Shown here: piece after piece, positions 1,375-61,887 of the stretch
Numbering within the stretch: the first letter of the stretch is position 1
Layout of the letters: each line of letters opens with the position of its first letter
Assembly (NCBI RefSeq): GCF_039649665.1
Contig: NZ_JBDJAW010000022.1
Span: forward strand, 1 to 64,000
Source: Microbispora sp. ZYX-F-249
GTDB taxonomy: Bacteria; Actinomycetota; Actinomycetes; Streptosporangiales; Streptosporangiaceae
Length of the DNA: 64,000 bases
Reading direction: 5' to 3'
The notes under the pieces: generated by a model
Database searches by the model: none
The model's input: the letters and a program-made list of their open reading frames with translations, nothing else
Told to the model about the DNA's origin: nothing
Made by a program: the position numbers and the translations under genes

Positions 1375-3719
1375 GGGCCTCCCTCCCCGGCCGGTTCGAA
1401 CTGCGCAGGTTCATGCGCTCCCGGCTCACCAGGGCCGCGCTGGTCGCCGTCGTGATGCTGCCCCTGCTGTACGCCGGGCTTTACCTGTGGTCGTTCTGGG
1501 ATCCCCAGGCGAACCTGAGCCGCGTACCGGTGGCCCTCGTGGTGGAGGACCGTCCGGCCACCGTCGCCGGAGCCGCGGATGGCCGGCCGAGCACGGTGAA
1601 CGCCGGAAGCGAGCTCGCCGCAGAACTGGAGGAGCGCAGGGTCTTCGCCTGGCACCGGGTCGGCGCGGCCGAGGCCGACAGAGGCGTCCGCGAAGGGCGT
1701 TACTACCTGTCGCTGACGATCCCGGCCGACTTCAGCGCCGACCTCGCCTCGCCCTCGGGTGACGGCACGCCGCAGCCCGCCCGGCTCGGCGTGCGGGTGG
1801 ACACCGGGCGCAGCTACATCATGGGGACGATCTCGGACGCCGTGTTCCGCGAGGTCAAGGAGGCGGCCGGGCGCAGCGCGGTCAAGGACTACCTCGACCG
1901 GATCTTCCTGTCGTTCGGCGAGCTGCACGACAAGACCACCCAGGCGGCCAACGGCGCCGGCCGGCTGCACGACGGAGCCGCCACCGCCAGCGACGGCGCC
2001 GCCTCACTGGCTAAGGGGCTGGGGTCCGTGCAGGACGCGACGGGCCGGCTGTCATCCGGGGCCGGCGCCCTGTACGGCGGGTCGAAGCGGCTGACGAGCG
2101 GGCTGCACCAGGCCAGGACCGGCTCGGCCTCCTTGTCCGCCGGCCTGTCGAAGGCGGCCTCCGGCGCGGCCGCCCTGCGTGAGGGCCTGTCCGCGCTCGA
2201 CAAGGGGGCGGCCACGCTGGCGGAGGGCAACCGCGAGGCCTACCGCCAGGTGCACGCCCTGTCTCCGGCCGTCAACCGCGCGGCCGACACGTACGTCCCC
2301 GTGCTGGAGCAGAACGGCGACCGTATCCGGCGGGCCGCGCTCACCCTGGCGGAGGGCGCCGACGGCTTCGCGAACGCGCTCGACGGCCTGCCCCGGGAGG
2401 TGCGGAGCTCGGCCGGCGCGGCCCGGCAGGACCTGCGTGCCGTCGAACGCTGGCTGGGCGCCCATCCCGACGCCGACCCCGAGCTGCGCACGCTGGTGGA
2501 ACGGGCGGCGGGGTCGGCCGGCGACCTCGCGTCGGCCGCCGGACGGCTGCAGGACCGCCTCGGCGCCCAGGAGGGCAGACTCGACGACCTCGCCCGTACG
2601 GCGCGGACGGTGGCGGACGACGCCCGGGAGCTGGCCGCCGCCGCACCCGGCCTCGGCACCGCCCTGGACGACGCCCGCGACAAGTTCAACGAGCTGGACA
2701 AGGGCCTCAAGCGGCTGGCCGACGGAGCGTCCGACCTGCGCGACGGCACCGGCAAGGCGCTGAGCGGGGCCTCCTCGCTGTCCACCGGTCTCGGCACGCT
2801 GAACACGGGCGCGCGCCGCCTGTCCACCGGCCTGGCCGAACTCGACGACGGAGCGAGCGGCCTCACCACGGGCCTCGCCTCGCTCGCCTCCGGCGCGGGC
2901 AAGCTCGAGGGCGGCATCGGCGCGCTGCGGCGGGGGGCCGGAAAACTCGACTCCGGGCTGGTCAAGCTGACCGACGGCTCGGGCGAGCTGGCCGGCGAGC
3001 TCGGCGACGGGGCCGCCCGGATCCCCGACTACGGGGCAGGGGACCGTGACAGCCGTACGGACATGATGAGCGACCCCGTCCGGCTCGCCACCGAGGTGGA
3101 CAACGAGGTGCCCAACTACGGGACCGGGTTCGCGCCCTTCTTCGTGCCGCTGGCGCTGTGGGTCGGCGCGATGGTGACGTACATGGTGCTGCGGCCGGTC
3201 AACCCGCGGCTGCTCGCCGGGTCGGCGCCGGCCTGGCGTACGGCGCTCGCGGGGTGGCTCCCGGGGCTCGCGATGGGGACGCTCCAGGTGGCGGTGCTGC
3301 TCGCCGTGCTGCGCTTCGGGCTCGGGCTGCGGGCCGGCGACTGGCCGGGCATGGCGGCCTTCCTCGTGCTCGTGACCGCGGCGTTCCTCGCGATCGTGCA
3401 GGCGGTCAACGCGCTGCTCGGGCCGCCCGGACGGGTCGCGGTGCTGGCGCTGCTCATGCTGCAGCTCACCTCGTCGGCGGGCACCTACCCCATCGAGACC
3501 TCCCCCGGCTTCTTCCAGGCGATCTCGCCGTGGCTGCCGATGAGCTGGGTGGTGTCGGCGATGCGCCGGCTCATCAGCGGCGGCGACGCCACCGTGGTGT
3601 GGCAGGCTTGCGGCGTGCTGTCCCTGTTCGTCGCCCTCGGTCTCGCGCTCACCGTGCTCGCCGTCCACCGCGGCCGTACCTGGTCGATGCGCCGCCTCAA
3701 GCCGGAGCTGTCGCTGTGA
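1371..3719 (+). CDS. YhgE/Pip-family membrane protein (ABC-2-like permease)
   Basis: 782 residues. It has one transmembrane helix near residues 20-42, then a ~560-residue extracytoplasmic region rich in repeated A..L..G...L..G heptads (predicted long coiled coil), then about five transmembrane helices in the last 190 residues. This is the YhgE/Pip layout (phage-infection-protein-like, ABC-2-type membrane subunit). It starts at the ATGA overlap with the ATPase gene and ends with a GTGA overlap with the TetR gene, so the three are translationally coupled. Exported substrate unknown. In the family, the coiled-coil region is thought to project outside the membrane. Confidence 0.85.
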   Translation: MRASLPGRFELRRFMRSRLTRAALVAVVMLPLLYAGLYLWSFWDPQANLSRVPVALVVEDRPATVAGAADGRPSTVNAGSELAAELEERRVFAWHRVGAAEADRGVREGRYYLSLTIPADFSADLASPSGDGTPQPARLGVRVDTGRSYIMGTISDAVFREVKEAAGRSAVKDYLDRIFLSFGELHDKTTQAANGAGRLHDGAATASDGAASLAKGLGSVQDATGRLSSGAGALYGGSKRLTSGLHQARTGSASLSAGLSKAASGAAALREGLSALDKGAATLAEGNREAYRQVHALSPAVNRAADTYVPVLEQNGDRIRRAALTLAEGADGFANALDGLPREVRSSAGAARQDLRAVERWLGAHPDADPELRTLVERAAGSAGDLASAAGRLQDRLGAQEGRLDDLARTARTVADDARELAAAAPGLGTALDDARDKFNELDKGLKRLADGASDLRDGTGKALSGASSLSTGLGTLNTGARRLSTGLAELDDGASGLTTGLASLASGAGKLEGGIGALRRGAGKLDSGLVKLTDGSGELAGELGDGAARIPDYGAGDRDSRTDMMSDPVRLATEVDNEVPNYGTGFAPFFVPLALWVGAMVTYMVLRPVNPRLLAGSAPAWRTALAGWLPGLAMGTLQVAVLLAVLRFGLGLRAGDWPGMAAFLVLVTAAFLAIVQAVNALLGPPGRVAVLALLMLQLTSSAGTYPIETSPGFFQAISPWLPMSWVVSAMRRLISGGDATVVWQACGVLSLFVALGLALTVLAVHRGRTWSMRRLKPELSL

Positions 3720-28209: not shown

Positions 28210-29364
28210 ATGCTCCACAGACGCACCGTACTCGCCGGATGCGCTCTGGCCGTCACGGCCCTCGCCACGGTCGCCACCCCCGCCATGGCCGAGCCGAACA
28301 ACTCTCCCGCCTCCTCCGCCGTCAAGCCGCCGCCCGCGATGGTGGAGGCGATGCAGCGGGACCTCGGGCTCACCTCAGCCCAGGTCGACGCCCGCCTCGC
28401 GAACGAGGCGAAGGCCATGGCCACCGAGGCCAAGGTGCGCGCCACCATCGGTGACGCCTACGCCGGGTCATGGGTCTCCGGCACCACCTCGGAGAGCTTC
28501 ATCGTCGCCACCGCCGACGCGTCCAAGGCCGGCGCGATCCTGGCCGCGGGCGCGCAGCCGAAGCTCGTCGGCCGCAGCCTCGCCACGCTCGAGTCCGCCG
28601 AGGCCGCGCTGGACCGGGCCGCCGCCGGCGCGCCCGCCTCCACGTCCGTCTGGTACGTCGACGTGCTCAGCAACAGCGTCGTCGTGCTGTCCTCCAACGC
28701 CGCCGAGGCCGAGGCGTTCGTGGCCGCGAGCGGCGCCGACAGGTCGGCCGTACGCGTCGAGCAGTCCAACGAGCAGCCGCAGACCTACTACGACGTGCGC
28801 GGCGGCGACGCCTACTACATCAACAGCTCGGCCCGGTGCTCGATCGGCTTCTCCGTACGCAGGGGAACCACGAACGGCTTCGTCAGCGCCGGTCACTGCG
28901 GCCGCGCCGGCAACAGCACGACCGGCTACAACCGGGTCGCCCAGGGCACCTTCCAGGGCTCCTCGTTCCCCGGCAACGACTACTCCTGGGTCGCGGTCAA
29001 CAGCAACTGGACGCCCAGGGGCTGGGTCAACAACTACAGCGGCGGCAATGTGGCGGTGCGGGGCTCGTCCGCCGCGCCCGTGGGCTCGTCGATCTGCCGG
29101 TCCGGCTCGACCACCGGCTGGCACTGCGGCACGGTCCAGCAGCTCAACGCCAGCGTCCGCTACTCCCAGGGCACGGTGAGCGGCCTGACCCGGACCAACG
29201 TCTGCGCCGAGCCCGGTGACTCCGGCGGCTCGTTCATCTCGGGCAACCAGGCTCAGGGCATGACCTCCGGCGGCTCCGGCAACTGCTCCTCCGGCGGCAC
29301 CACCTACTTCCAGCCCGTCAACGAGGCCCTCTCGGCGTACGGCCTCACCCTCGTCACCGGCTGA
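28210..29364 (+). CDS. Secreted S1 serine protease, alpha-lytic/streptogrisin type with prodomain
   Basis: 384 residues from an ATG behind AAGGAG. Signal peptide (about 1-29, ending AMA), an alpha-lytic-type propeptide (about 30-195) that in this family folds and inhibits the protease, then the mature chymotrypsin-fold domain. The triad appears as SAGHCG, DYSW and GDSGGS, with paired cysteines around the His and Ser. Extracellular after self-cleavage. Its stop is 22 bases before the 243-bp palindromic repeat element. Confidence 0.9.
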   Translation: MLHRRTVLAGCALAVTALATVATPAMAEPNNSPASSAVKPPPAMVEAMQRDLGLTSAQVDARLANEAKAMATEAKVRATIGDAYAGSWVSGTTSESFIVATADASKAGAILAAGAQPKLVGRSLATLESAEAALDRAAAGAPASTSVWYVDVLSNSVVVLSSNAAEAEAFVAASGADRSAVRVEQSNEQPQTYYDVRGGDAYYINSSARCSIGFSVRRGTTNGFVSAGHCGRAGNSTTGYNRVAQGTFQGSSFPGNDYSWVAVNSNWTPRGWVNNYSGGNVAVRGSSAAPVGSSICRSGSTTGWHCGTVQQLNASVRYSQGTVSGLTRTNVCAEPGDSGGSFISGNQAQGMTSGGSGNCSSGGTTYFQPVNEALSAYGLTLVTG

Positions 29365-29386
29365 CCCCCACCCCCCACCCCCCACC

Positions 29387-29629
29387 GCCCGTGATCTTGT
29401 AGTTTGTCGCAACAAAGGCTGTGTCCAGGGCCGCCACGGTCCGTGATCTTGCACAAAAGCGCACCCTGGGTCCACGACCAGCGAGAACGCCCTCCGTGAT
29501 CATGCAATTGCTAGATCACGGAGGGCGTTTTCGCAGGTCGAGCACATGACCAGTGAGTCGACCACAAGATCACGAAGGATAACACTGCAGGTCAGCGGCT
29601 TCTCTGCGACAAACTACAAGATCACGGGC
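29387..29629. repeat. 243-bp palindromic element built from a CGTGATCTTG motif every ~53 bp
   Basis: The ends are perfect 25-bp inverted repeats (29387-29411 and 29605-29629; they read GCCCGTGATCTTGTAG.. and its complement). Forward motifs CGTGATCTTG/CATG start at 29390, 29442 and 29495; reverse motifs start at 29511, 29565 and 29617. Steps are 52, 53, then 54 and 52 bases, about five turns of B-DNA. A 19-bp stem sits at the centre. It fills the gap between two convergent genes. It may be a MITE-like element, a bidirectional terminator cassette or a phased protein-binding array. Confidence 0.85.
29483..29532. terminator. Bidirectional hairpin at the centre of the repeat element
   Basis: GAGAACGCCCTCCGTGATC (29483-29501) pairs with GATCACGGAGGGCGTTTTC (29514-29532), 18 of 19 positions, around a 12-base loop. 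The plus strand ends in TTTT and the minus strand in TTCTC, and it lies between convergent genes, so it can terminate both transcripts. Confidence 0.65.
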
Positions 29630-29644
29630 TGTGTGTGGGTGGGG

Positions 29645-33708: not shown

Positions 33709-33795
33709 TGAAACAGGTTTCTATTTCGCTGTATGTTAGACGGGGCAGTGACCGACGTCACGAGGGATATGGAAAAGTGACCGAAACAGGTTCTA
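33709..33795. promoter_or_regulatory. Two AAACAGGTT palindromes in the divergent DUF3068/acyltransferase promoter
   Basis: TGAAACAGGTTTCT (33709-33722) and CGAAACAGGTTCTA (33782-33795) share a nine-base core AAACAGGTT and both have the AACnnGTT dyad. The first is between the divergent genes; the second is inside the first codons of the acyltransferase gene. Two identical cores 73 bases (about seven turns) apart suggest a cooperative regulator. Confidence 0.5.
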
Positions 33796-35108
33796 GCTCG
33801 TCGGCCACTCGTGACATGTTACCCGCCGGTTCGCAACCCGTTCGTGACACTGGCGTGCCCGTCGGCCACGTCGACGCCCTCGACGGCGTGCGGGCGCTCG
33901 CGGCCGTCGCCGTCCTCGTCTTCCACGTCGCGATCGAGTCGGCGGCGGCGCTGCACGACAACTTCTTCAGCAGCCTGCTCGCCCGTGGCGACGTCGCGGT
34001 CCCGATCTTCTTCGCGCTGTCCGGGCTGCTCCTCTACCGGCCGTACGCGCGTGCCGCGCTGCTCGGGGAGCGTCCCCCGGACACCCGCGTCTACCTGGTC
34101 AAGCGCGCCCTGCGCATCCTCCCGGCGTACTGGCTGGTCGTGGTCGTGGCGATGGTGCTGTGGTCCAAGCCGCACCTCGGCGACGTCAAGACGTGGCTGC
34201 AACTGCTGCTGCTCGGCCACACCTACGAGATCCACCCCTGGTGGTTCGGCCTCGGGCCGCGCGGGCTCGCCCAGATGTGGAGCCTGTGCGTCGAGGCCGC
34301 CTTCTACGTGCTGCTGCCGCTGGTCGCCGCCGTGCTCGCGGCGTTCGCGCGGCGCGGCGGCCCCGGCCTCGACGCCCGCGCGCGGCGGCTGCTGACCGGC
34401 GTCGCCGTGCTCGCCGCGTCGTCGTTCGCGTGGGCGCTGCTCACCTACTACCCGGTCTACCGGCCCTACCTGAACGCCTGGCTGCCCCGGGCCTGGGTGT
34501 TCTTCGCGGTCGGCATGGCGCTGGCCGTCGTCTCCGAGTGGGCCCGGCAGGAAACCGGCGAGAACGGCCCGGCGCGCCGGTTCGTCCGGGCGGTGGGCGC
34601 GTCGGCGGGCTCGTTCCTGCTCGTCGCCGCCCTCGCGTACGCCGTGGCGGCCTCGCCGCTGACCGGCACGCGGTTCAGCGGCGTGGACGGCGTCTGGGCC
34701 GACCTGTCGGAGCTGGCCCTGTACGCCACCGTGGCGGCCGGGCTGGTGACCCCGGCAGCGCTGCTGCCGGCCGGCGGCTCGCCGTACGGCCGCTTCCTGA
34801 GCAGCCGCGTGATGCGCTTCCTCGGCCGGGTGTCGTACGGCGTGTTCCTGTGGCAGTTCGTGGCCCTCTATCTCTGGTACGACTTCACCGAGCAGCAGGC
34901 GTGGAGCGGGAACTTCGCCGGCAACCTGGTCGTGGTCGGCGCGCTCACGCTGCTGCTCGCCACGCTCACCCATCGGTACGTCGAGGAGCCGGCGAGGCGC
35001 CTCGCCCGCCTGGCGACCTCTTCCCGGAGGGAGAAGCGGACGGGGACGCCGACGGAGACGGCGACGGAGACGGCGACGGAGAAGGCGGCGGCGTCGCCGC
35101 TGCCGTAG
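33777..35108 (+). CDS. Acyltransferase-3 family membrane protein
   Basis: 443 residues from a GTG; a poly-transmembrane acyltransferase-3 protein with the start signature HVDALDGVRALAAVAVLVFH near 31, SGLLLYRPYARAALL near 81 (the Arg motif) and MWSLCVEAAFYVLLPL near 166, and a YVEEPARRL end. Members O-acylate extracytoplasmic sugars. Homologous position to Rv0228. The last ~30 residues are a TETATETATEK tail whose DNA is shared, on the opposite strand, with the Pro/Ser tail of the next gene (143-base overlap). Confidence 0.88.
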   Translation: MTETGSSSSATRDMLPAGSQPVRDTGVPVGHVDALDGVRALAAVAVLVFHVAIESAAALHDNFFSSLLARGDVAVPIFFALSGLLLYRPYARAALLGERPPDTRVYLVKRALRILPAYWLVVVVAMVLWSKPHLGDVKTWLQLLLLGHTYEIHPWWFGLGPRGLAQMWSLCVEAAFYVLLPLVAAVLAAFARRGGPGLDARARRLLTGVAVLAASSFAWALLTYYPVYRPYLNAWLPRAWVFFAVGMALAVVSEWARQETGENGPARRFVRAVGASAGSFLLVAALAYAVAASPLTGTRFSGVDGVWADLSELALYATVAAGLVTPAALLPAGGSPYGRFLSSRVMRFLGRVSYGVFLWQFVALYLWYDFTEQQAWSGNFAGNLVVVGALTLLLATLTHRYVEEPARRLARLATSSRREKRTGTPTETATETATEKAAASPLP

Positions 35109-37042: not shown

Positions 37043-37780
37043 GTGCACGCCGAGCCGTTCCGCGCCGACCTGGCCCGTTCGATTCGCCTGTTCAGCGCCT
37101 TCCGCAAGGAGCAGACCGACCCCGACTTCTTCTACGGCCTGCTCGCCCGCGACACCGTCGCCCAGCTCGCGGCGTACGCCGACCTGGACGGCGCACTCGT
37201 CGCGGACGTCGGCGGCGGGCCCGGTTACTTCACCGACGCGCTGCGCGCCGTGGGCGCGCGGCCGGTGTGCGTGGACTGCGACGCCGGGGAGATGAGCGCG
37301 CGCACCGGCGCGATCCCCGACGGCGCGGTGCTCGGCAGCGCCCTCGACCTGCCGCTGAAGACCGGTGCCGTGGACGTGTGCTTCTCCTCCAACGTGCTGG
37401 AGCACGTGCCCGACCCGTGGCGGATGGGCGACGAGATGGTGCGGGTGACGCGGCCGGGCGGCCTGGTCTACCTGTCGTTCACCAACTGGCTGTCGCCCTG
37501 GGGCGGCCACGAGACCTCGCCGTGGCACTACCTGGGCGGGCATCGGGCCGCGCGCCGCTACACGCGCCGCCACGGCCACTCCCCCAAGAACGTGTACGGC
37601 ACGAGCCTGTACGCCGTCTCGGTGGCCCGGGCGCTCGCGTGGGCCCGGCGGCACCCCGGCGCCGACCTGGTCGACGCCCTGCCGCGCTACCACCCTCGCT
37701 GGGCGACCCCGGTGATCCATCTACCCGGCGTTCGCGAAATCGTGACGTGGAACCTGCTGCTGGTGCTGCGCCGCCGCTGA
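37043..37780 (+). CDS. SAM-dependent methyltransferase (Rv0224c-like)
   Basis: 245 residues from a GTG with GGAGAGGG upstream. Class I methyltransferase: VADVGGGPGYFTDAL (motif I, near 53), VDCDAG (motif II acidic residue), and DVCFSSNVLEHVPDPWRMG (motif IV region). The C-terminal part with HYLGGHRAARRYTRRHGH is characteristic of the actinobacterial Rv0224c-type family. Located among envelope genes, it may methylate a sugar or lipid precursor. Converges on and overlaps the second DUF3068 gene by 60 bases. Confidence 0.82.
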   Translation: MHAEPFRADLARSIRLFSAFRKEQTDPDFFYGLLARDTVAQLAAYADLDGALVADVGGGPGYFTDALRAVGARPVCVDCDAGEMSARTGAIPDGAVLGSALDLPLKTGAVDVCFSSNVLEHVPDPWRMGDEMVRVTRPGGLVYLSFTNWLSPWGGHETSPWHYLGGHRAARRYTRRHGHSPKNVYGTSLYAVSVARALAWARRHPGADLVDALPRYHPRWATPVIHLPGVREIVTWNLLLVLRRR

Positions 37781-38692
37781 CCTTCTCGTCCGCGCGCCGA
37801 TCCGGTGGACCAGGGCGAGCACGACCGCGAGCAGGCCGCACGCCAGCGGGATCCACTCGCGCGTCAGCAGGATCCACCGGCGGAACCGGGCCGCCTCGTC
37901 GGCGAACGCCCGCACCTCGGCGGCGCTCGTCGTCAGGTCGGCGTCGAAGGCGACCTGACGCTCGACCTGGTCGGGCGTGCGCAGGGTGTCGCGCCGCCGC
38001 TCCCGGGTGCGCACGGTCAGCCCGCTCTCCGGCTCGACCCAGATCGTGCGGGTGATCTCGGTGTACCTCGCCACGGTGACCCGCCGCTCGCCGGGCATGC
38101 CGACCGACGTGCCGGGCACCGGGCCGGGCAGGTCGGCCGTCTTCACCGGCCCGGCCGAGTAGGTGTAGCGGTAGGTCCGCAGGCCCTCGACGGTCTCCTC
38201 GCGCTCGAACCGCATCGGCGCCTCCCGCCGCAGCACCGGGTCGAACATGCCGTACGAGCGCGGCTCCGCGCCCGCGGGCAGGCGGAAGGCGAGCCCGGTC
38301 TGCCGTACGCCGGGATCCTCGTCGACGTATCCGCCACAGCAGTCGACGGCGAGGCCGGTCCGCCGGTCGAAGGCCGTGCGGCGCTCGTGGTAGTCGACCC
38401 GCTCGCCGTCCCGGGTGTCGAGCGAGGAGAACTCCACCCACACGGCCGTGCGCTCGTCCCCGGCCCGCGGATCGCCGTAGACGGCCACCGTGTTCTGCAC
38501 GGGCACGCCTCTGTGGAGCCGGAACGTGGCGGTGTCGAGGTAGGTGGCCGAGGGCGAGACGAGCCGCTGGATCCTCGTCAGCTCCAGCGGCAGCACCGTG
38601 GTCCGCGGGGCGACGTAGAAGTGGAACAGCACCCCCACGGTGACCAGGAAGGCGATGCCCGCCAGGAGCAGCGTGCGCGGCGACCGCCCCAT
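37721..38692 (-). CDS. DUF3068 membrane protein, copy 2
   Basis: 323 residues starting at the ATG 38692; the ribosome-like AGGGGGGAG abuts the start, and a GTG four codons upstream is possible. Transmembrane helix near 6-27, extracytoplasmic domain with a CC pair (VDCCGGYVDED near 112) and IWVEPESGL near 237, and a second helix near 290-310. Same topology and the same paired cysteines as the copy at 32739-33668, but diverged. Follows aftD by 8 bases on the same strand, so probably co-transcribed. Confidence 0.85.
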   Translation of the reverse strand: MGRSPRTLLLAGIAFLVTVGVLFHFYVAPRTTVLPLELTRIQRLVSPSATYLDTATFRLHRGVPVQNTVAVYGDPRAGDERTAVWVEFSSLDTRDGERVDYHERRTAFDRRTGLAVDCCGGYVDEDPGVRQTGLAFRLPAGAEPRSYGMFDPVLRREAPMRFEREETVEGLRTYRYTYSAGPVKTADLPGPVPGTSVGMPGERRVTVARYTEITRTIWVEPESGLTVRTRERRRDTLRTPDQVERQVAFDADLTTSAAEVRAFADEAARFRRWILLTREWIPLACGLLAVVLALVHRIGARTRRSAAAQHQQQVPRHDFANAG

Positions 38693-38700
38693 CTCCCCCC

Positions 38701-41700
38701 TCACACCCCCACCCCCCTGCCGTGATCTTGCAGTTTGTCGCAGGAACCCGGCGCGACCTGCGCGTCTTCCGTTCGTGATCTTGCACTTGAGCGGCCGAAA
38801 GCGCCCCCACCAGCACCGTTCCCGTCCGTGATCTTGCGATCGTCGTCCGGATCCCGTACGGCGGCCAGCAGCCGGGCGAGCACGACGAGACAGAGCGCGT
38901 CGGCGGCCGCGCCCTGCCCGGCCGCCTGGGCCACGCCGGCGAGGCCGAGCGCGACGAGCACCACCCACGCGGAGGCGGCCCGGCGGGCGAGGGCCCGCGG
39001 GCGGCTCGGGCCCGCGTGCTGGGCGGCGGCGATCCCGCGCAGCCACAGGAACGCCGCGAGCGCCGCGGCGACGACGGCCACGCCCGCCACGCCCCCGGCC
39101 CACAGCCCGGCGAGCGGCGCCGCGATCCACACCCACGGCGCGCGGACGCGTCCCGGCCCCACGGGTCGCAGCCGCGACCGGCCCCGCACCAGTGCCAGGG
39201 CCACCACCACGAGGGCCAGGCCCAGCCCGGCCAGCAGCGCCGCGCGGTAGGCCGGATCGGGCTCGTAGCGCAGCACCACCTCGCCGCCGCCGGCCGGCAG
39301 CTCCCACGCCTGCCGCCAGCCGTCGAGCCGTGCCGGGGTGAGCCGCGCGCCGTCGAGGTACGCCTGCCAGCCGGCGTTGAAATTCTCGTTGACCACCAGA
39401 TAGGACGGCGCGGCGGCGGCGACCCGGAGGCGGCGCTCCTGCGGCCCCCACGAGGTCACCGTGGCGGGGGCGGCCGTCACCGCCTTCCGCTCCTGCCCGG
39501 TGCCGTCGGCCAGCACCACCGAGCGAACCCGGAAGGCGTCGCCCGGCGCCACGCTGACCCTGCTGCGGCCCTCGGTGAGGTGCACGGGCGCGCAGCCCGA
39601 GTAGGTCAGCGGGCGGCCGTTGAGCACGTCGTCGAGCGTGCCCTCGACCACCCGGGTCGGCACGTCGTCGCCGTCCACCCGCAGGGTCGGGCCGTACCCG
39701 CAGGGCAGCCGCAAGGGGATCGCGCCGAGGCCGCCGAGGGGTTTCACCCCGGGGATGGCGATCTCGGCGACCTCGATCGCGCGGGAGGCGGGCGCGGTGA
39801 ACTCGATGGTGAACGTCCGCGTCCTCACCGTGGGGAAGGTGAACACGCCGTCGCGGTCCACCCAGCCCTGCACCGCTCGCTCTCCGGCACGCAGCGTGAG
39901 CTTCACCGGCGGGATGCCCTGCGCCGAGTCGGGGAACAGCACCCGGATCCGCGAGAAGCTCCGGGTCGTCCCCAGGTCGATCGACAGCGTCGGATGCCGG
40001 TCGAACGGCTGGGCGAACCACAGCGTCGAGGGGTCGCCGTCCATCGCCTGGCGGCCCAGCACGGCGCCGTGCTCGGCCGCCGTCGAGGACGCGCTCACAT
40101 GCGGGTACTGCTTCGGCAGCGTGGTGAGCAGGTCCGCCGCCTTCGGATCGGTCAGCACGGCCTGCCCGCGCAGCGTGCGCACGCCGTCGCGCGCCACCGG
40201 GACGAGCCGGTCGAAGCCGTTGCCGTCCTCGCCCAGGATCTGGAGGCGGGAGGAGCACGTCCAGGTGACCGAGCCCCGCATGCACGCGTCGGCGTCCCCC
40301 TGCTTGGTCAGCAGCATGGTGCCCGGGTCGCCCGCGCCGGTGCCCGTGTTGGATGTGTCCGGCACCGAGATCGTCCGCACCGCCCGCACGCCCGGGACGC
40401 GCAGGTCGGTGATGCCGACCCGGCTGCCGAGCGCCGTCTTCGGCTCGTACGCGAGCCTGGTCACCCGGATCCGCAGCCACCGGCTCTTGCCCGGCACCGG
40501 TGGCAGCGGCTGGAGCGCGTCGGTCCGCGCCACCGGGACGCGCCGCACGCCGCGCTCGGTCTCCAGCGCGACCTCGGCCACGGGCGGCCCGGCCGCCTCC
40601 TGCTCGAACGCCGCCGAGATCTCGGTCAGGTCGACCTGGCCGGTGAAGCGGACCTCCAGCCACTCCCCGACCGCGCCGTGCCAGCCGTCCGACCGCCATC
40701 CCGTGCGCGGGTCGTCGTCGAGCGCGGCGTACGGCTGCCGCCCGGGGTCGCGCTGGCCCACGGCGGCCGTGACACCGGAGTCCGCCGACGAGGCGGTGAC
40801 GTCCTTCACGTCGAGATAGCGGGCGGTCGAGGTGGCCGCCGACCAGGCCGGATCGGTGAGATCGGTGGTCACGAGCGCCTGGTCGTCCGGCAGCGTGGCC
40901 GACGCGATGCGCCGTACGTCGCCGAACACGATGTCCCGTTTCCGCAGCGTGTCGGTGAGGATCGTGTCGCGGGCCGGGATCGCGGCCGCGCCCGGCTCGT
41001 CGCCGACGAGCACCGGCCGGTCGCCGGTGAGCAGGCCCTCCTCGGCCAGGTCGAGCACGGCCTCGGGGGCGCCCTCCACGTGCAGCGTGCCCGCACGGGG
41101 CACGGTCGAGGCGAGCGGAGCCGTCCCCGGGATCGTGTAGACCTCCAGCGCCGGGTACGGCTGGTCGAGCCAGCCCGAGGCGGTCCCGCTCGCGGTCAGG
41201 CCGACCAGCGGCCCGAACTCGGCGGTCCTGGAGAGCCCGGAGTCCTGCAGGGTCTGGTGCACCCGGGCGGGCCAGGCGGTGCCGAGCGTCTCCCTGATCA
41301 GGTCGTTGCGGATGAGCAGGTGGCTCACCCCGGCGCGGCGCAGGGCCGCGGTCAGGCCGGGCGAGCCGCGCCCGGTGGCGAAGCGCTCGTCCACCGCCTG
41401 CACGAGCCGGGCGAGGCCGGGCGAGCCCCACGGCACGTTGGCGTGGGTGGCCCAGCGCACGGTCAGCAGCGACTGCATGGGCTCGTCGAGCGGCCGGCCC
41501 CACAGGTACTCCCCCCGGGCCGAGCCGGGCATGGCGAGCACCATGCCGTCGCCCGCGTTGCGGTTCAGCCAGGCCGCCGCCTCCCGCCAGTAGGTGGGGA
41601 GGTCCGCGAAGGAGCCGCGGGCGGTCACCCCGGCCGTGCCGACCGGCACGAGCGTGAGCGCGAGCAGCCCGGCGATCGCGGCGGTGACCGGCCCGCGCAG

Positions 41701-42987
41701 GCGCGCCGGCCCTGTCGCCGGCCCTGTCGCCGGCAGGGCAGCGGGAAGCGCGGCCAGGCCGAGCGCCAGCGGCAGCCGGATCAGCGCGTCGAACTTGTGC
41801 AGGTTGCGGAAGGGCGCGAGCGGCCCGTCGAACAGGTCCCTGACCTGGCCGGTCCAGGGGTGGGCGAGGTCGCCCGCGTGGCCCGCGGTGACGATCAGCA
41901 GGCCGGCGACCACGCTCAGGACCAGGAACGTCCGCTCCGGGGTCGCCCGGCGGACGACGCCGGTCAGCCCGAGCCCGGCCACCAGCGCCGTCGCGGCGAC
42001 CAGCCACGGCACGGTGGCCTGGTCGTAGGCCGCCGGCAGCCACGGCTGCCCGTCCACCGGCAGGAACGAGATCCAGCTCGACGTGCCGCGCAGCGCGTTC
42101 ACCAGCGAGGTGACGCTGGTGGTCGCCGACGCCGTCTCGATGAACGGCAGGAACGAGAAGATGTAGCGCCCGAGCAGCAGCAGCGGGACGAGCCACCACA
42201 TCGACACGAGGCCGGCGAACAGCAGCCACCAGCCGAGCAGGGCCCATTTGCGCCCGCCGTTCCGGCGGCTGAGCAGGTAGACGAGCGGGACGACGAGCAC
42301 GGCCAGTTCCGCCGCCGCGTTGACGCCGCCCGCGAACAGGAACGCGACGGCCGAGAGCGCGGCGGCCCGGCGCGGGCTCACGCCCTCCCGGGTGCCGCGG
42401 ACCAGCGGCAGCAGCACCCACGGCAGCACGGCGCTCGGCTGGAACTCCGAGGAGTTGATCCCGATCAGGGCCAGCGCGTGCGGGGCCAGGGCGTAGGCGA
42501 GCGCGCCGAGGATCCGGGTGCCGGGCGAGCCGATCCCCATCGCCCGGGCCAGCCGCTCGGTCCCGAGGAACGCCGCGCACAGCACGAGCGACATCCACAG
42601 CCGCTGGATGTCCCAGGCGGGCATGTCCATGGCCCGGAAGAGCACGTAGAACGGCCCCATCGGGAAGAGATAGCCGTACGCCTGGTTCTGCAGGTGGCCG
42701 AAGTAGGCCGGATCCCACAGGTGCAGCGCGCGTGACAGGAACCCCAGGGGGTTCACCGCCATGTCGAGCTTGGTCTCGGAGATCACCGCGCCGGGCGCGG
42801 TGTTGAAGGCGACGGCCGCCAGCAGCAGGCAGCCCGCGAGCAGCCGCAGCCGGTGGCGCAGCGTCCGGCCCGGCGGCGCGGGACGGGCGGCGGGGGCGGG
42901 CTCCGGGGCTCCGGCGCTCTCGCCGGGCGCGCGGGTCACCTCTTCCGGCGCGGGCTCCCGCGGCTGGACCGGGACGTCGACGGACAC
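38701..42987 (-). CDS. aftD: AftD-type alpha-(1->3)-arabinofuranosyltransferase
   Basis: 1428 residues from a GTG. A GT-C N-terminal membrane part (about 11 helices, residues 45-430) opens with a loop holding SETKLD and a DPAYFG motif, as in DUF3367/AftD. Extracytoplasmic modules follow, including two discoidin-like carbohydrate-binding segments (DDDPRTGWRSDGW near 745; DGDPSTLWFAQPFD near 990), then about four C-terminal helices. It would transfer arabinofuranose from decaprenylphosphoryl-arabinose to a growing glycan. The last ~45 residues (from RKITDG) are translated CGTGATCTTG repeats, so the ancestral stop was probably near 38845. Follows the GT4 gene by 8 bases. Confidence 0.85.
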   Translation of the reverse strand: MSVDVPVQPREPAPEEVTRAPGESAGAPEPAPAARPAPPGRTLRHRLRLLAGCLLLAAVAFNTAPGAVISETKLDMAVNPLGFLSRALHLWDPAYFGHLQNQAYGYLFPMGPFYVLFRAMDMPAWDIQRLWMSLVLCAAFLGTERLARAMGIGSPGTRILGALAYALAPHALALIGINSSEFQPSAVLPWVLLPLVRGTREGVSPRRAAALSAVAFLFAGGVNAAAELAVLVVPLVYLLSRRNGGRKWALLGWWLLFAGLVSMWWLVPLLLLGRYIFSFLPFIETASATTSVTSLVNALRGTSSWISFLPVDGQPWLPAAYDQATVPWLVAATALVAGLGLTGVVRRATPERTFLVLSVVAGLLIVTAGHAGDLAHPWTGQVRDLFDGPLAPFRNLHKFDALIRLPLALGLAALPAALPATGPATGPARLRGPVTAAIAGLLALTLVPVGTAGVTARGSFADLPTYWREAAAWLNRNAGDGMVLAMPGSARGEYLWGRPLDEPMQSLLTVRWATHANVPWGSPGLARLVQAVDERFATGRGSPGLTAALRRAGVSHLLIRNDLIRETLGTAWPARVHQTLQDSGLSRTAEFGPLVGLTASGTASGWLDQPYPALEVYTIPGTAPLASTVPRAGTLHVEGAPEAVLDLAEEGLLTGDRPVLVGDEPGAAAIPARDTILTDTLRKRDIVFGDVRRIASATLPDDQALVTTDLTDPAWSAATSTARYLDVKDVTASSADSGVTAAVGQRDPGRQPYAALDDDPRTGWRSDGWHGAVGEWLEVRFTGQVDLTEISAAFEQEAAGPPVAEVALETERGVRRVPVARTDALQPLPPVPGKSRWLRIRVTRLAYEPKTALGSRVGITDLRVPGVRAVRTISVPDTSNTGTGAGDPGTMLLTKQGDADACMRGSVTWTCSSRLQILGEDGNGFDRLVPVARDGVRTLRGQAVLTDPKAADLLTTLPKQYPHVSASSTAAEHGAVLGRQAMDGDPSTLWFAQPFDRHPTLSIDLGTTRSFSRIRVLFPDSAQGIPPVKLTLRAGERAVQGWVDRDGVFTFPTVRTRTFTIEFTAPASRAIEVAEIAIPGVKPLGGLGAIPLRLPCGYGPTLRVDGDDVPTRVVEGTLDDVLNGRPLTYSGCAPVHLTEGRSRVSVAPGDAFRVRSVVLADGTGQERKAVTAAPATVTSWGPQERRLRVAAAAPSYLVVNENFNAGWQAYLDGARLTPARLDGWRQAWELPAGGGEVVLRYEPDPAYRAALLAGLGLALVVVALALVRGRSRLRPVGPGRVRAPWVWIAAPLAGLWAGGVAGVAVVAAALAAFLWLRGIAAAQHAGPSRPRALARRAASAWVVLVALGLAGVAQAAGQGAAADALCLVVLARLLAAVRDPDDDRKITDGNGAGGGAFGRSSARSRTEDAQVAPGSCDKLQDHGRGVGV
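38719..38836 (+). repeat. Three CGTGATCTTG units, exactly 53 bp apart, at the 3' end of aftD
   Basis: CGTGATCTTG occurs at 38721, 38774 and 38827, all in the plus orientation and 53 bases apart. The first unit continues CAGTTTGTCGCA, as does unit 1 at 29390 (one mismatch), and the second continues CAC, as does unit 2 at 29442, so the order of units is conserved between the two loci. Confidence 0.85.
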
Positions 42988-61501: not shown

Positions 61502-61887
61502 CAGTGGAGGTGGCGGGAATCGAACCCGCGTCCTTCAACACCAAGACAGGGCTTCTCCGGGTGCAGCCTGTTGCGCTTTTCTCGGCCCCGGCAATCTCAC
61601 AGGCGAGTCGCCGACGGGCCCAGTCACTGTTTGATTTCCCGTACGGCCCCGTGACCGGGCCGGACGGTTGAGCCTTCTAGCGATGTCAGTTCCGGGCCGA
61701 AGGCACTCCCGGGCTGACAGAGGTTTCTCGCTGCTTAGGCGGCGAGAGCCAGGGAAGCCTGGCTGACCTCAGTGCTCTTGTTATTGGCACTTATTTGTTC
61801 GCGGTCACAGTGTTGACGGGGTTATGTCCGCAGTCCCCGACCCGCTTCCCCTGACTTGCAATGTCGAAGTCGAAACCGGTCACCCCC
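61502..61887 (-). ncRNA. ssrA: Transfer-messenger RNA (tmRNA, SsrA)
   Basis: The 5' end GGGGGUG (61887 downward), followed by ACCGGUUUCGACUUCGAC, pairs with CACCUCC at 61506-61512, giving the tRNA-like acceptor stem. The T-arm GGACGCGGGTTCGATTCCCG precedes it. The tag frame starts after TAAGT with GCC and reads ANNKSTEVSQASLALAA then TAA. After the discriminator A the DNA reads CTG, so the terminal CCA does not appear to be encoded fully and would be added by the CCA enzyme. It rescues stalled ribosomes with SmpB. Confidence 0.95.

Follow-up and report, generated by a model that had tools for sequence, protein, structure and literature searches.

In some Microbispora and in further genera of the family, dozens of genes end at short DNA arrays in which conserved boxes recur at a fixed 53-bp step. 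The arrays sit mostly at gene 3′ ends, are preceded by a C-rich, weakly folding leader that avoids G even at synonymous sites of the adjoining gene, and at two loci have replaced the native junction. We propose that such an array, coated by a putative DNA-binding factor, may act as a polar, two-sided terminator or insulator, perhaps with Rho acting on the rut-like leader; we rate the chances of this proposal as about even.

Anatomy of the arrays in the window

The window is the whole 64,000-nt stretch of Microbispora sp. ZYX-F-249 DNA that was analyzed. It holds two array loci, with the following parts (position, strand, description and, in parentheses, basis).

28210–29364, plus: secreted trypsin/alpha-lytic-type protease gene; its 3′ end abuts the locus 1 element
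29365–29389, plus: left outer leader, C-rich and G-poor, directly after the trypsin-like protease stop codon (sequence)
29390–29411, plus: A1 box with extension, CGTGATCTTGTAGTTTGTCGCA, left arm (sequence, box scan, profile)
29422–29429, plus: degenerate B box (TGTCCAGG), left arm, unit 1 (position from profile)
29442–29453, plus: A2 box, left arm (sequence, box scan)
29475–29481, plus: B box (CGACCAG), left arm, unit 2 (sequence, profile)
29486–29529, no strand: central perfect 16-bp hairpin (both A3 boxes plus flanks), then TTTTC on the plus strand (sequence)
29495–29506, plus: A3 box (CGTGATCATGCA), left arm (sequence, box scan)
29509–29520, minus: A3 box, right arm (sequence, box scan)
29534–29540, minus: B box (CGACCTG), right arm, unit 2 (sequence, profile)
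29563–29574, minus: A2 box, right arm (sequence, box scan)
29588–29594, minus: B box (TGACCTG), right arm, unit 1 (sequence, profile)
29605–29626, minus: A1 box with extension, right arm (sequence, box scan, profile)
29627–29644, minus: right outer leader, C-rich on the minus strand, up to the SDR gene stop codon
29645–30394, minus: short-chain dehydrogenase (SDR) gene; its 3′ end abuts the locus 1 element
37721–38692, minus: PorA/DUF3068-like gene flanking locus 2
38693–38720, plus: locus 2 leader, next to the PorA/DUF3068-like gene start, with the displaced AftD-like ORF stop inside
38701–42987, minus: AftD-type arabinofuranosyltransferase gene, its frame running through the locus 2 array
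38721–38742, plus: locus 2 A1 box with extension (sequence, box scan)
38754–38760, plus: locus 2 B box (CGACCTG) (sequence, profile)
38774–38785, plus: locus 2 A2 box (sequence, box scan)
38807–38813, plus: locus 2 B box (CCACCAG) (sequence, profile)
38827–38838, plus: locus 2 A3 box (CGTGATCTTGCG) (sequence, box scan)

A sequence-only reading of the window had described locus 1 as six motif copies, three per arm, spaced 52 to 54 bp, bounded by perfect 25-bp inverted ends and filling the gap between convergent genes, and each of these points was borne out. Locus 1 is an inverted 3+3-box element with boxes at 29390, 29442 and 29495 (CGTGATCATG) on the plus strand and at 29511–29520 (CGTGATCTAG), 29565–29574 and 29617–29626 on the minus strand, four of them exact and two with one mismatch. 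The 5′-to-5′ steps, outer step first, are 52 and 53 bp in the left arm and 52 and 54 bp in the right arm; the inverted ends, 29387–29411 and 29605–29629, are identical over 25 bp, and the element occupies 29365–29644, the whole gap between two convergent stop codons. The second locus that the reading had pointed to (38721–38838) does carry the same motif, in three exact boxes with steps of 53 and 53 bp, but it is a half element (a single arm) and lies between AftD-like and PorA/DUF3068-like genes that run in the same direction. The AftD-like reading frame continues through this array to a new stop, and the last tens of residues of the ORF are array-encoded.

In the window, 12 sites match the box with at most one mismatch, against 2.06 expected, a count reached by 0 of 100 shuffles; four exact pairs at 50 to 56 bp compare with none in each of 200 dinucleotide shuffles. 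The reversed pattern, used as a control, gave a count of zero; this control is weak, because the reversed pattern contains CTAG, which is rare in such genomes. The two loci are not alone: the source genome (8.78 Mb in 206 contigs) holds 101 exact CGTGATCTTG sites and 20 exact pairs. The original observation is confirmed and larger than first seen, and its interpretation is partly supported. Gene calls were made with a simple codon model that missed at least one gene (33777–35108). Rfam models at gathering score detected only the tmRNA gene in the window (61502–61887, minus strand) and no known RNA family at the element.

Architecture across copies

A profile of 210 deduplicated chains of at least two boxes gives the order of a half element, from outside inward, as C-rich leader, A1, B, A2, B and A3. 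A1 reads CGTGATCTTGTAGTTTGTCGCA, and A2 and A3 both read CGTGATCWTGCA; the A box core GTGATC(T/A)TG recurs every 53 bp, with a B box near GACCTG in between (YGACCTGSG, about 34 bp past the A1 start). Conservation of the A core is partly a matter of construction, because box detection required GATC; the A1 extension was not required for arrays of at least two boxes, and the B box never was. Three boxes are present in 148 of the 210 chains. Out of 430 steps, 305 measure 53 bp, 66 measure 54, 55 measure 52, three measure 51 and one measures 55. The 53-bp step inside arms is found in each host genus examined, in 132 of 149 steps in the g23 and g81 data sets and in 51 of 56 in g56 together with one array of G088. 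Bases that follow the A core differ between genera, CACAGGTTCGG-like in g23 and GAATTCTCGCA-like in g56, and the B core is unchanged.

An opposite arm lies within 200 bp in 178 of 224 arrays, and 46 have no partner arm. This set was obtained with a slightly different detection rule from that of the 210 chains, and its counts (224 or 222 arrays) include one chance match, L193, from a MAG labelled Proteobacteria, which was left out of the codon, folding and C/G analyses. The innermost boxes of the 86 full elements are 26 bp apart in 43 cases and 36 to 37 bp apart in 15. After orthologues were collapsed (52 loci), a whole-turn preference across the dyad was still seen, but it is modest, with p about 0.005 to 0.01 at 10.5 to 11 bp, once the 26-bp class is removed (n = 23); no such phasing was present in g23 and g81 (n = 16, p 0.4 to 0.6). 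The helical phasing read from the window thus stands inside the arm, where the fixed step is robust, but is not established across the dyad. The central stem is extended in 12 of the 86 elements, which have at least 9 of 12 flank matches against about 2 expected, and locus 1 is among them. A short tandem repeat around GTGAGATCGCAGT lies beside an array in H11081 (L162, minus strand near 3385).

Distribution among genomes

When the named-genome collection (84,980 species) was scanned for the exact pattern, 113 stretches matched, from Microbispora bryophytorum, M. rosea and Microbispora sp. H11081, with one stretch in Microbispora sp. H13382; a single MAG stretch labelled Proteobacteria was taken as a chance match. 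A search of the family matched 8 of 297 genomes, and a search of the order with the GTGATCNTG box matched 16 of 345. By counts of exact GTGATCNTG box pairs, arrays are borne by 5 of 15 Microbispora genomes (29 in G000, 35 in G003, 24 in G006, 116 in G007 and 3 in G004), by G071 (20) and G120 (116) in genus g56 and by G096 (195) in genus g81; in genus g23 all five sampled species were positive, with 327, 350, 83, 352 and 440 pairs. G088, from another genus, has one array of three boxes, and one match each in G295 and G037 is probably due to chance. The same architecture is present in three further genera of the family beyond Microbispora, which suggests that the array family is old. Several actinobacterial genera carry dozens or more copies.

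In a sample of the class (394 genomes), the three matches were G000, G003 and one single match among 353 genomes outside the family. Viral contigs, plasmids and phages gave no match, and an origin from any of these was rejected for those collections. A de novo search for another motif at 52- to 54-bp spacing in 400 kb of the 8.8-Mb array-free genome G010 found nothing conspicuous.

Orthologues in H11081 (72 elements) were found for 18 of 21 elements of the source genome, 19 of 22 of M. bryophytorum and 18 of 19 of M. rosea, counting only stretches with an exact 20-mer from the named-genome scan plus the source-genome loci. On a single-gene tree of the protease locus, array bearers do not form one clade; three changes are needed, a number as low in 152 of 500 shuffles, and the tree is uninformative. 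Microbispora sp. H13382, otherwise almost devoid of arrays, carries a few, partly decayed, at L260 and L261, which we read as a naturally occurring instance of either loss or introgression.

Conservation in place and replacement of native junctions

Across 75 orthologous array pairs, divergence is 3.6% in the A1 extension, 10.7% in B and 28.3% in the spacers, with 16.1% at four-fold sites. Comparison of sequences in place strongly supports the view that these are binding arrays under selection. Spacers of non-orthologous arrays agree at 12.21 of 34 positions, against 12.39 expected from column composition, and with one exception this comparison rejects a copy-paste origin. The exception, L126/L151, is the sole clear non-orthologous pair with similar spacers (29 of 34) and is probably a recent duplication; several other high spacer scorers look like orthologues missed by the flank filter. 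A1 mismatches, set against the H11081 orthologues, number 31 versus 12 in M. rosea (26 pairs), 28 versus 21 in M. bryophytorum (29 pairs) and 15 versus 14 in the source genome (27 pairs); there are hints here that selection may be relaxed in M. rosea.

At locus 1, the element is present in the source genome, G006 (with the first box degraded) and G007. In seven congeners (G003, G004, G008, G010, G012, G013 and G014) the stop codon is instead 35 to 48 bp from the right anchor; boxes are absent within 320 bp, and a long hairpin is present, with a 70-nt minimum free energy (MFE) of −44.8 to −51.4 kcal/mol. The more distant G001, G009 and G011, whose right side is unaligned, likewise lack a box and form a hairpin (−34.6 to −43.8 kcal/mol). 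In all ten array-free congeners the hairpin follows the stop codon directly, while in the three element bearers the MFE is −12.5 to −18.2 kcal/mol. G002 and G005 are uninformative, since the left anchor matched a gene copy without comparable surroundings. In this comparison, which covers one locus, the element occupies the position that an ordinary hairpin terminator has in relatives.

The locus 2 array is shared with G007; six congeners (G004, G008, G010, G012, G013 and G014) have 26 to 44 bp there, the distant G002 has 155 bp of other sequence, and the remaining genomes gave no alignment across the junction. The native junction has been replaced at both loci, and no target-site duplication is visible at either. 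The suggestion of a MITE-like family finds no support in these replaced junctions or in the unrelated spacers of non-orthologous copies.

Position relative to genes

On its outer side an array adjoins a 3′ end in 167 of 222 cases and a 5′ end in 55; 3′ ends adjoin 24 of 33 arrays in the g56 data set and 38 of 52 in that of g23 and g81. The 86 full elements comprise 39 between convergent genes, 43 between co-directional genes, one between divergent genes and three not assignable, compared with 135 convergent, 465 co-directional and 118 divergent among 718 background junctions (Fisher's test, p = 6e-8 for convergent enrichment and 3e-5 for divergent depletion). The suspected bias for convergent regions is real in the sense of an excess (39 of the 83 full elements that could be classified), but about half of the full elements lie between co-directional genes, and “at a gene 3′ end” is the better rule. 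In 22 of the 46 half arrays, the outer neighbour is a 3′ end and a co-directional gene starts on the inner side, often within about 10 to 66 bp, and the half array at locus 2 sits in a former gene overlap.

Among arrays with enough flank, the stop codon falls inside A1 in 65 (the TGA of CGTGATC or the TAG of CTTGTAG) and 0 to 60 bp ahead of A1 in 90, and 55 face a 5′ end. The stop is TAA in 58 of these 90, against 93 of 765 background genes, and CCCC comes next in 65. TAA stops number 6 of 15 in g56, against 19 of 322; in g23 and g81 the enrichment is absent (1 of 22).

A few intervals between inward-facing arms carry genes. One interval, aligned in three genomes (L137, 870–2340; G000:C3:9657–11066; L097, 4412–5757), has in L137 a DUF559-type gene (Pfam REase_MTES_1575 and AbiEi_1) between the two arms of one element, which itself has a GDP-mannose-dehydratase-like gene on one side and a P450 gene on the other; array-free congeners have about 50 to 136 bp there (G002, G005 and G014) or longer inserts. 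At L095 (2057–4836), inward-facing arms bracket two genes, which by eye from their translations we take to be a deaminase and a glycerate kinase gene, and the next gene, allantoinase-like by the same token, seems to be without its own start codon, lost to the G-rich side of the arm. A third such interval holds what is presumably an ABC ATPase gene, also named by eye. No transposase gene was found inside the three intervals.

G avoidance and weak folding of the outer leader

Over about 60 to 90 bp outside A1, C rises and G falls, and at synonymous sites this trend extends into the gene. Within 30 bp of A1, codons for K, E and Q end in A in 64% of cases (n = 58) versus 16% (n = 402), four-fold sites hold C at.79 and G at.14 (n = 771) versus.49 and.37 (n = 2,198), and Y-ending codons have C at.98 versus.87. 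No such trend was seen at 557 control gene ends, from which any with a box within 400 bp had been excluded. In g23 and g81 (30 ends, up to 60 bp), the A-ending fractions are.67 and.37 versus.19 and.12, and four-fold G is.19 and.18 versus.34 and.39; in g56 (20 ends), four-fold G is.18 and.17 versus.34 and.34, with no K/E/Q avoidance in a sample of only 5 and 27 codons. Boxes are missing at the end of a P450 gene in seven congeners, M. rosea included, which read AAG ACG CTG there, and the three with the array read AAA TCC CTC, AAA ACC CTC and AAG ACC CTG.

The leader also folds weakly: the median is −17.8 kcal/mol for the 70 nt ahead of A1 versus −26.4 kcal/mol for 300 sampled controls, and −13.8 kcal/mol for the 60 nt past the stop codon versus −24.2 kcal/mol for 172 convergent controls. 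The median C/G ratio of the 78-nt leader is 1.95 (n = 155), compared with 1.03 at 556 control gene ends; the RhoTermPredict criterion, as given in a passage of its description (PMC6407284), is a C/G ratio over 1 in 78 nt. Arrays that face 5′ ends have equally C-rich leaders (median 2.06, n = 55), so the leader follows the array and not sense transcription. In genes that face an array by their 5′ end, the bias is mirrored, with four-fold G at.52 and C at.33 within 60 bp (n = 116) versus.37 and.56 beyond 90 bp, and the synonymous bias thus follows the strand of the array; the mirrored effect looks weaker (17 genes and 116 codons, without a matched control).

A possible role in ending transcription

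In the model that we propose, each arm would be an ordered DNA platform (leader, A1 with its extension, B, A2, B and A3) that presents one A box per 53 bp, or five helical turns. Both box types could be occupied, from one side of the helix, by one or two putative factors, which would form a polar nucleoprotein block. The platform would usually lie directly past a stop codon and point away from the gene, a full element being two facing platforms. A polymerase leaving the gene would first make a G-poor, weakly structured, C-rich leader RNA that might suit Rho loading, and would then meet the array, where it could be held and released, making the element a two-sided terminator/insulator able to replace hairpin terminators. 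We infer the binding factor, the roadblock, termination and the use of the leader by Rho from the patterns above, and for termination by the array itself we see the chances as evenly balanced. The initial suggestion of a terminator cassette or protein-binding array remains the best-supported direction among those first offered. A wider claim, on which we are more tentative and lean slightly against, is that this is a transcription-boundary system of the lineage's own, in which a dedicated binding factor and periodic two-box arrays displaced hairpin terminators at dozens of gene ends, in one genus probably more than 100, and shaped the adjoining codon usage toward G-poor leader transcripts.

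Several observations fit termination poorly. They include the 55 of 222 arrays whose outer neighbour is a 5′ end and the unenriched TAA stops of g23 and g81; half arrays with a co-directional gene start inside, and the former overlap at locus 2, are awkward for a strong terminator. Dyad phasing that is weak in Microbispora and missing in g23 and g81 also counts against the proposed platform.

The arrays could instead serve chromosome architecture, as sites for a nucleoid, condensin or topoisomerase-type factor at intergenic spots where supercoils build up, and have no part in termination. Their location at 3′ ends and between convergent genes, a spacing set at the DNA level, a leader of the same kind beside 3′ and 5′ gene ends and the abundance of arrays (in the richer hosts, 20 to 440 exact box pairs per genome) are all in line with such a role, and BIME-2 elements bind gyrase, according to a passage in PMC2817692. 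Architecture alone, however, leaves unexplained the loss of G at synonymous sites on the strand entering the array, the weak folding of the leader, the direct abutment on stop codons and the missing strong hairpin at the element site, and we consider it unlikely.

A mutational origin of the leader would require that machinery acting at the array, through nicking, resection or stalled forks, biases one strand against G for some 60 to 90 bp outward, leaving a leader without function. The gradient does depend on the distance from A1 and follows the strand of the array rather than that of the gene, and four-fold divergence is higher near arrays (0.195 and 0.211 versus 0.159), but only slightly so, and the base that replaces G at four-fold sites is C, not A as expected from ordinary cytosine deamination on the other strand. 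We find this footprint explanation quite improbable.

The inverted three-site arms resemble multi-site transposon ends, of which Mu and Tn7 provide examples, and the gene-carrying intervals (DUF559-type gene; deaminase and glycerate kinase; ABC ATPase) could be taken as cargo between transposon ends or within a MITE family with three transposase sites per end, the conserved copies being merely old. Against this stand the loss of the native junction at two loci with no target duplication, the much lower divergence of boxes than of spacers between orthologous copies, the dissimilar spacers of non-orthologous copies (bar one duplicated pair) and gene-carrying intervals that lack a transposase, and we regard such an origin as very unlikely. 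An RNA element, in which the palindrome forms a long 3′ UTR hairpin that affects stability or RNase III cleavage, could draw on the pairing of the two A3 boxes and on the 12 extended stems, but RNA pairing needs no 52- to 54-bp spacing, complementarity outside A3 is near the shuffled level past the first bases, and as a general function the hairpin is rejected because half elements exist, which makes this reading extremely improbable.

A conserved array at gene ends, with a synonymous-codon footprint and able to occupy the place of a hairpin, would add a third way of ending transcripts to intrinsic and plain Rho termination, or else mark a new type of chromosome boundary. To our knowledge, the transcription ends of most genes in high-GC actinobacteria are poorly mapped; array-rich and array-free congeners are natural controls.

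Comparison with known systems

By the layout of their repeats the arrays are not a CRISPR, as had been concluded at the outset: a conserved B box recurs at a constant position in the intervals, and the arrays are short, inverted and scattered. Nor do they have the makeup of intrinsic terminators, since the 60 nt past the stop codon are less folded than control convergent ends and the extended central hairpin is confined to a minority. MITEs are likewise short, with inverted ends and many copies; the arrays differ in having no target duplication at two loci, no family of near-identical copies (they are not alike over their whole length, L126/L151 excepted) and boxes conserved in place, and membership among MITEs or transposons found no support in these comparisons. 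No IS-like copy was seen, in line with the initial description.

REP/BIME elements of E. coli and Pseudomonas, which are associated with RAYT, resemble the arrays in being extragenic and 3′ of coding regions, between convergent and co-directional ORFs. Passages in PMC2817692 and PMC3733652 state that REP/BIME termini can supply a stop codon, as the arrays do too, and report that such elements aid Rho termination and that BIME-2 binds gyrase. The arrays differ in having, by their profile, no 20- to 40-bp REP hairpin with a GTAG/CGTC tag (the A and B boxes are not such palindromes), in their two box types and direct repeats every 53 bp and in spacers that are unrelated between copies. Of 22 genomes, 13 contain PF01797, the domain of IS200/IS605-like Y1 (RAYT) transposases, but its presence is not tied to that of the arrays: it is absent from array-bearing G000, G007, G096, G088 and four of five g23 genomes and present in array-bearing G003, G006, G004, G113, G120 and G071 and in seven of eight array-free genomes. 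Together with the lack of a REP palindrome, this led us to reject REP/BIME membership.

Rho-dependent terminators share with the arrays a weakly structured leader of about 78 nt with more C than G before a presumed arrest zone, as described in PMC6407284. The rut-like composition and weak structure of the array leader bear on how the element may work and not on the class to which it belongs. In the arrays, unlike at Rho-dependent terminators, a repeated, sequence-conserved DNA array follows the leader. We know of no ordinary rut site with a partner DNA array. TTF-I and Reb1 sites are protein-roadblock terminators, ordered sites for a DNA-binding protein directly after a transcription unit; the arrays differ in being genome-wide, two-sided and bacterial and in having two box types, and their factor is only putative. 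No description of the element was found in the open-licence PMC literature, judged by title and start of abstract, and among the matches listed for the A-box 10-mer in that literature all were unrelated by title. We rate the element type as new, with REP/BIME and Rho terminators as its nearest neighbours in habit.
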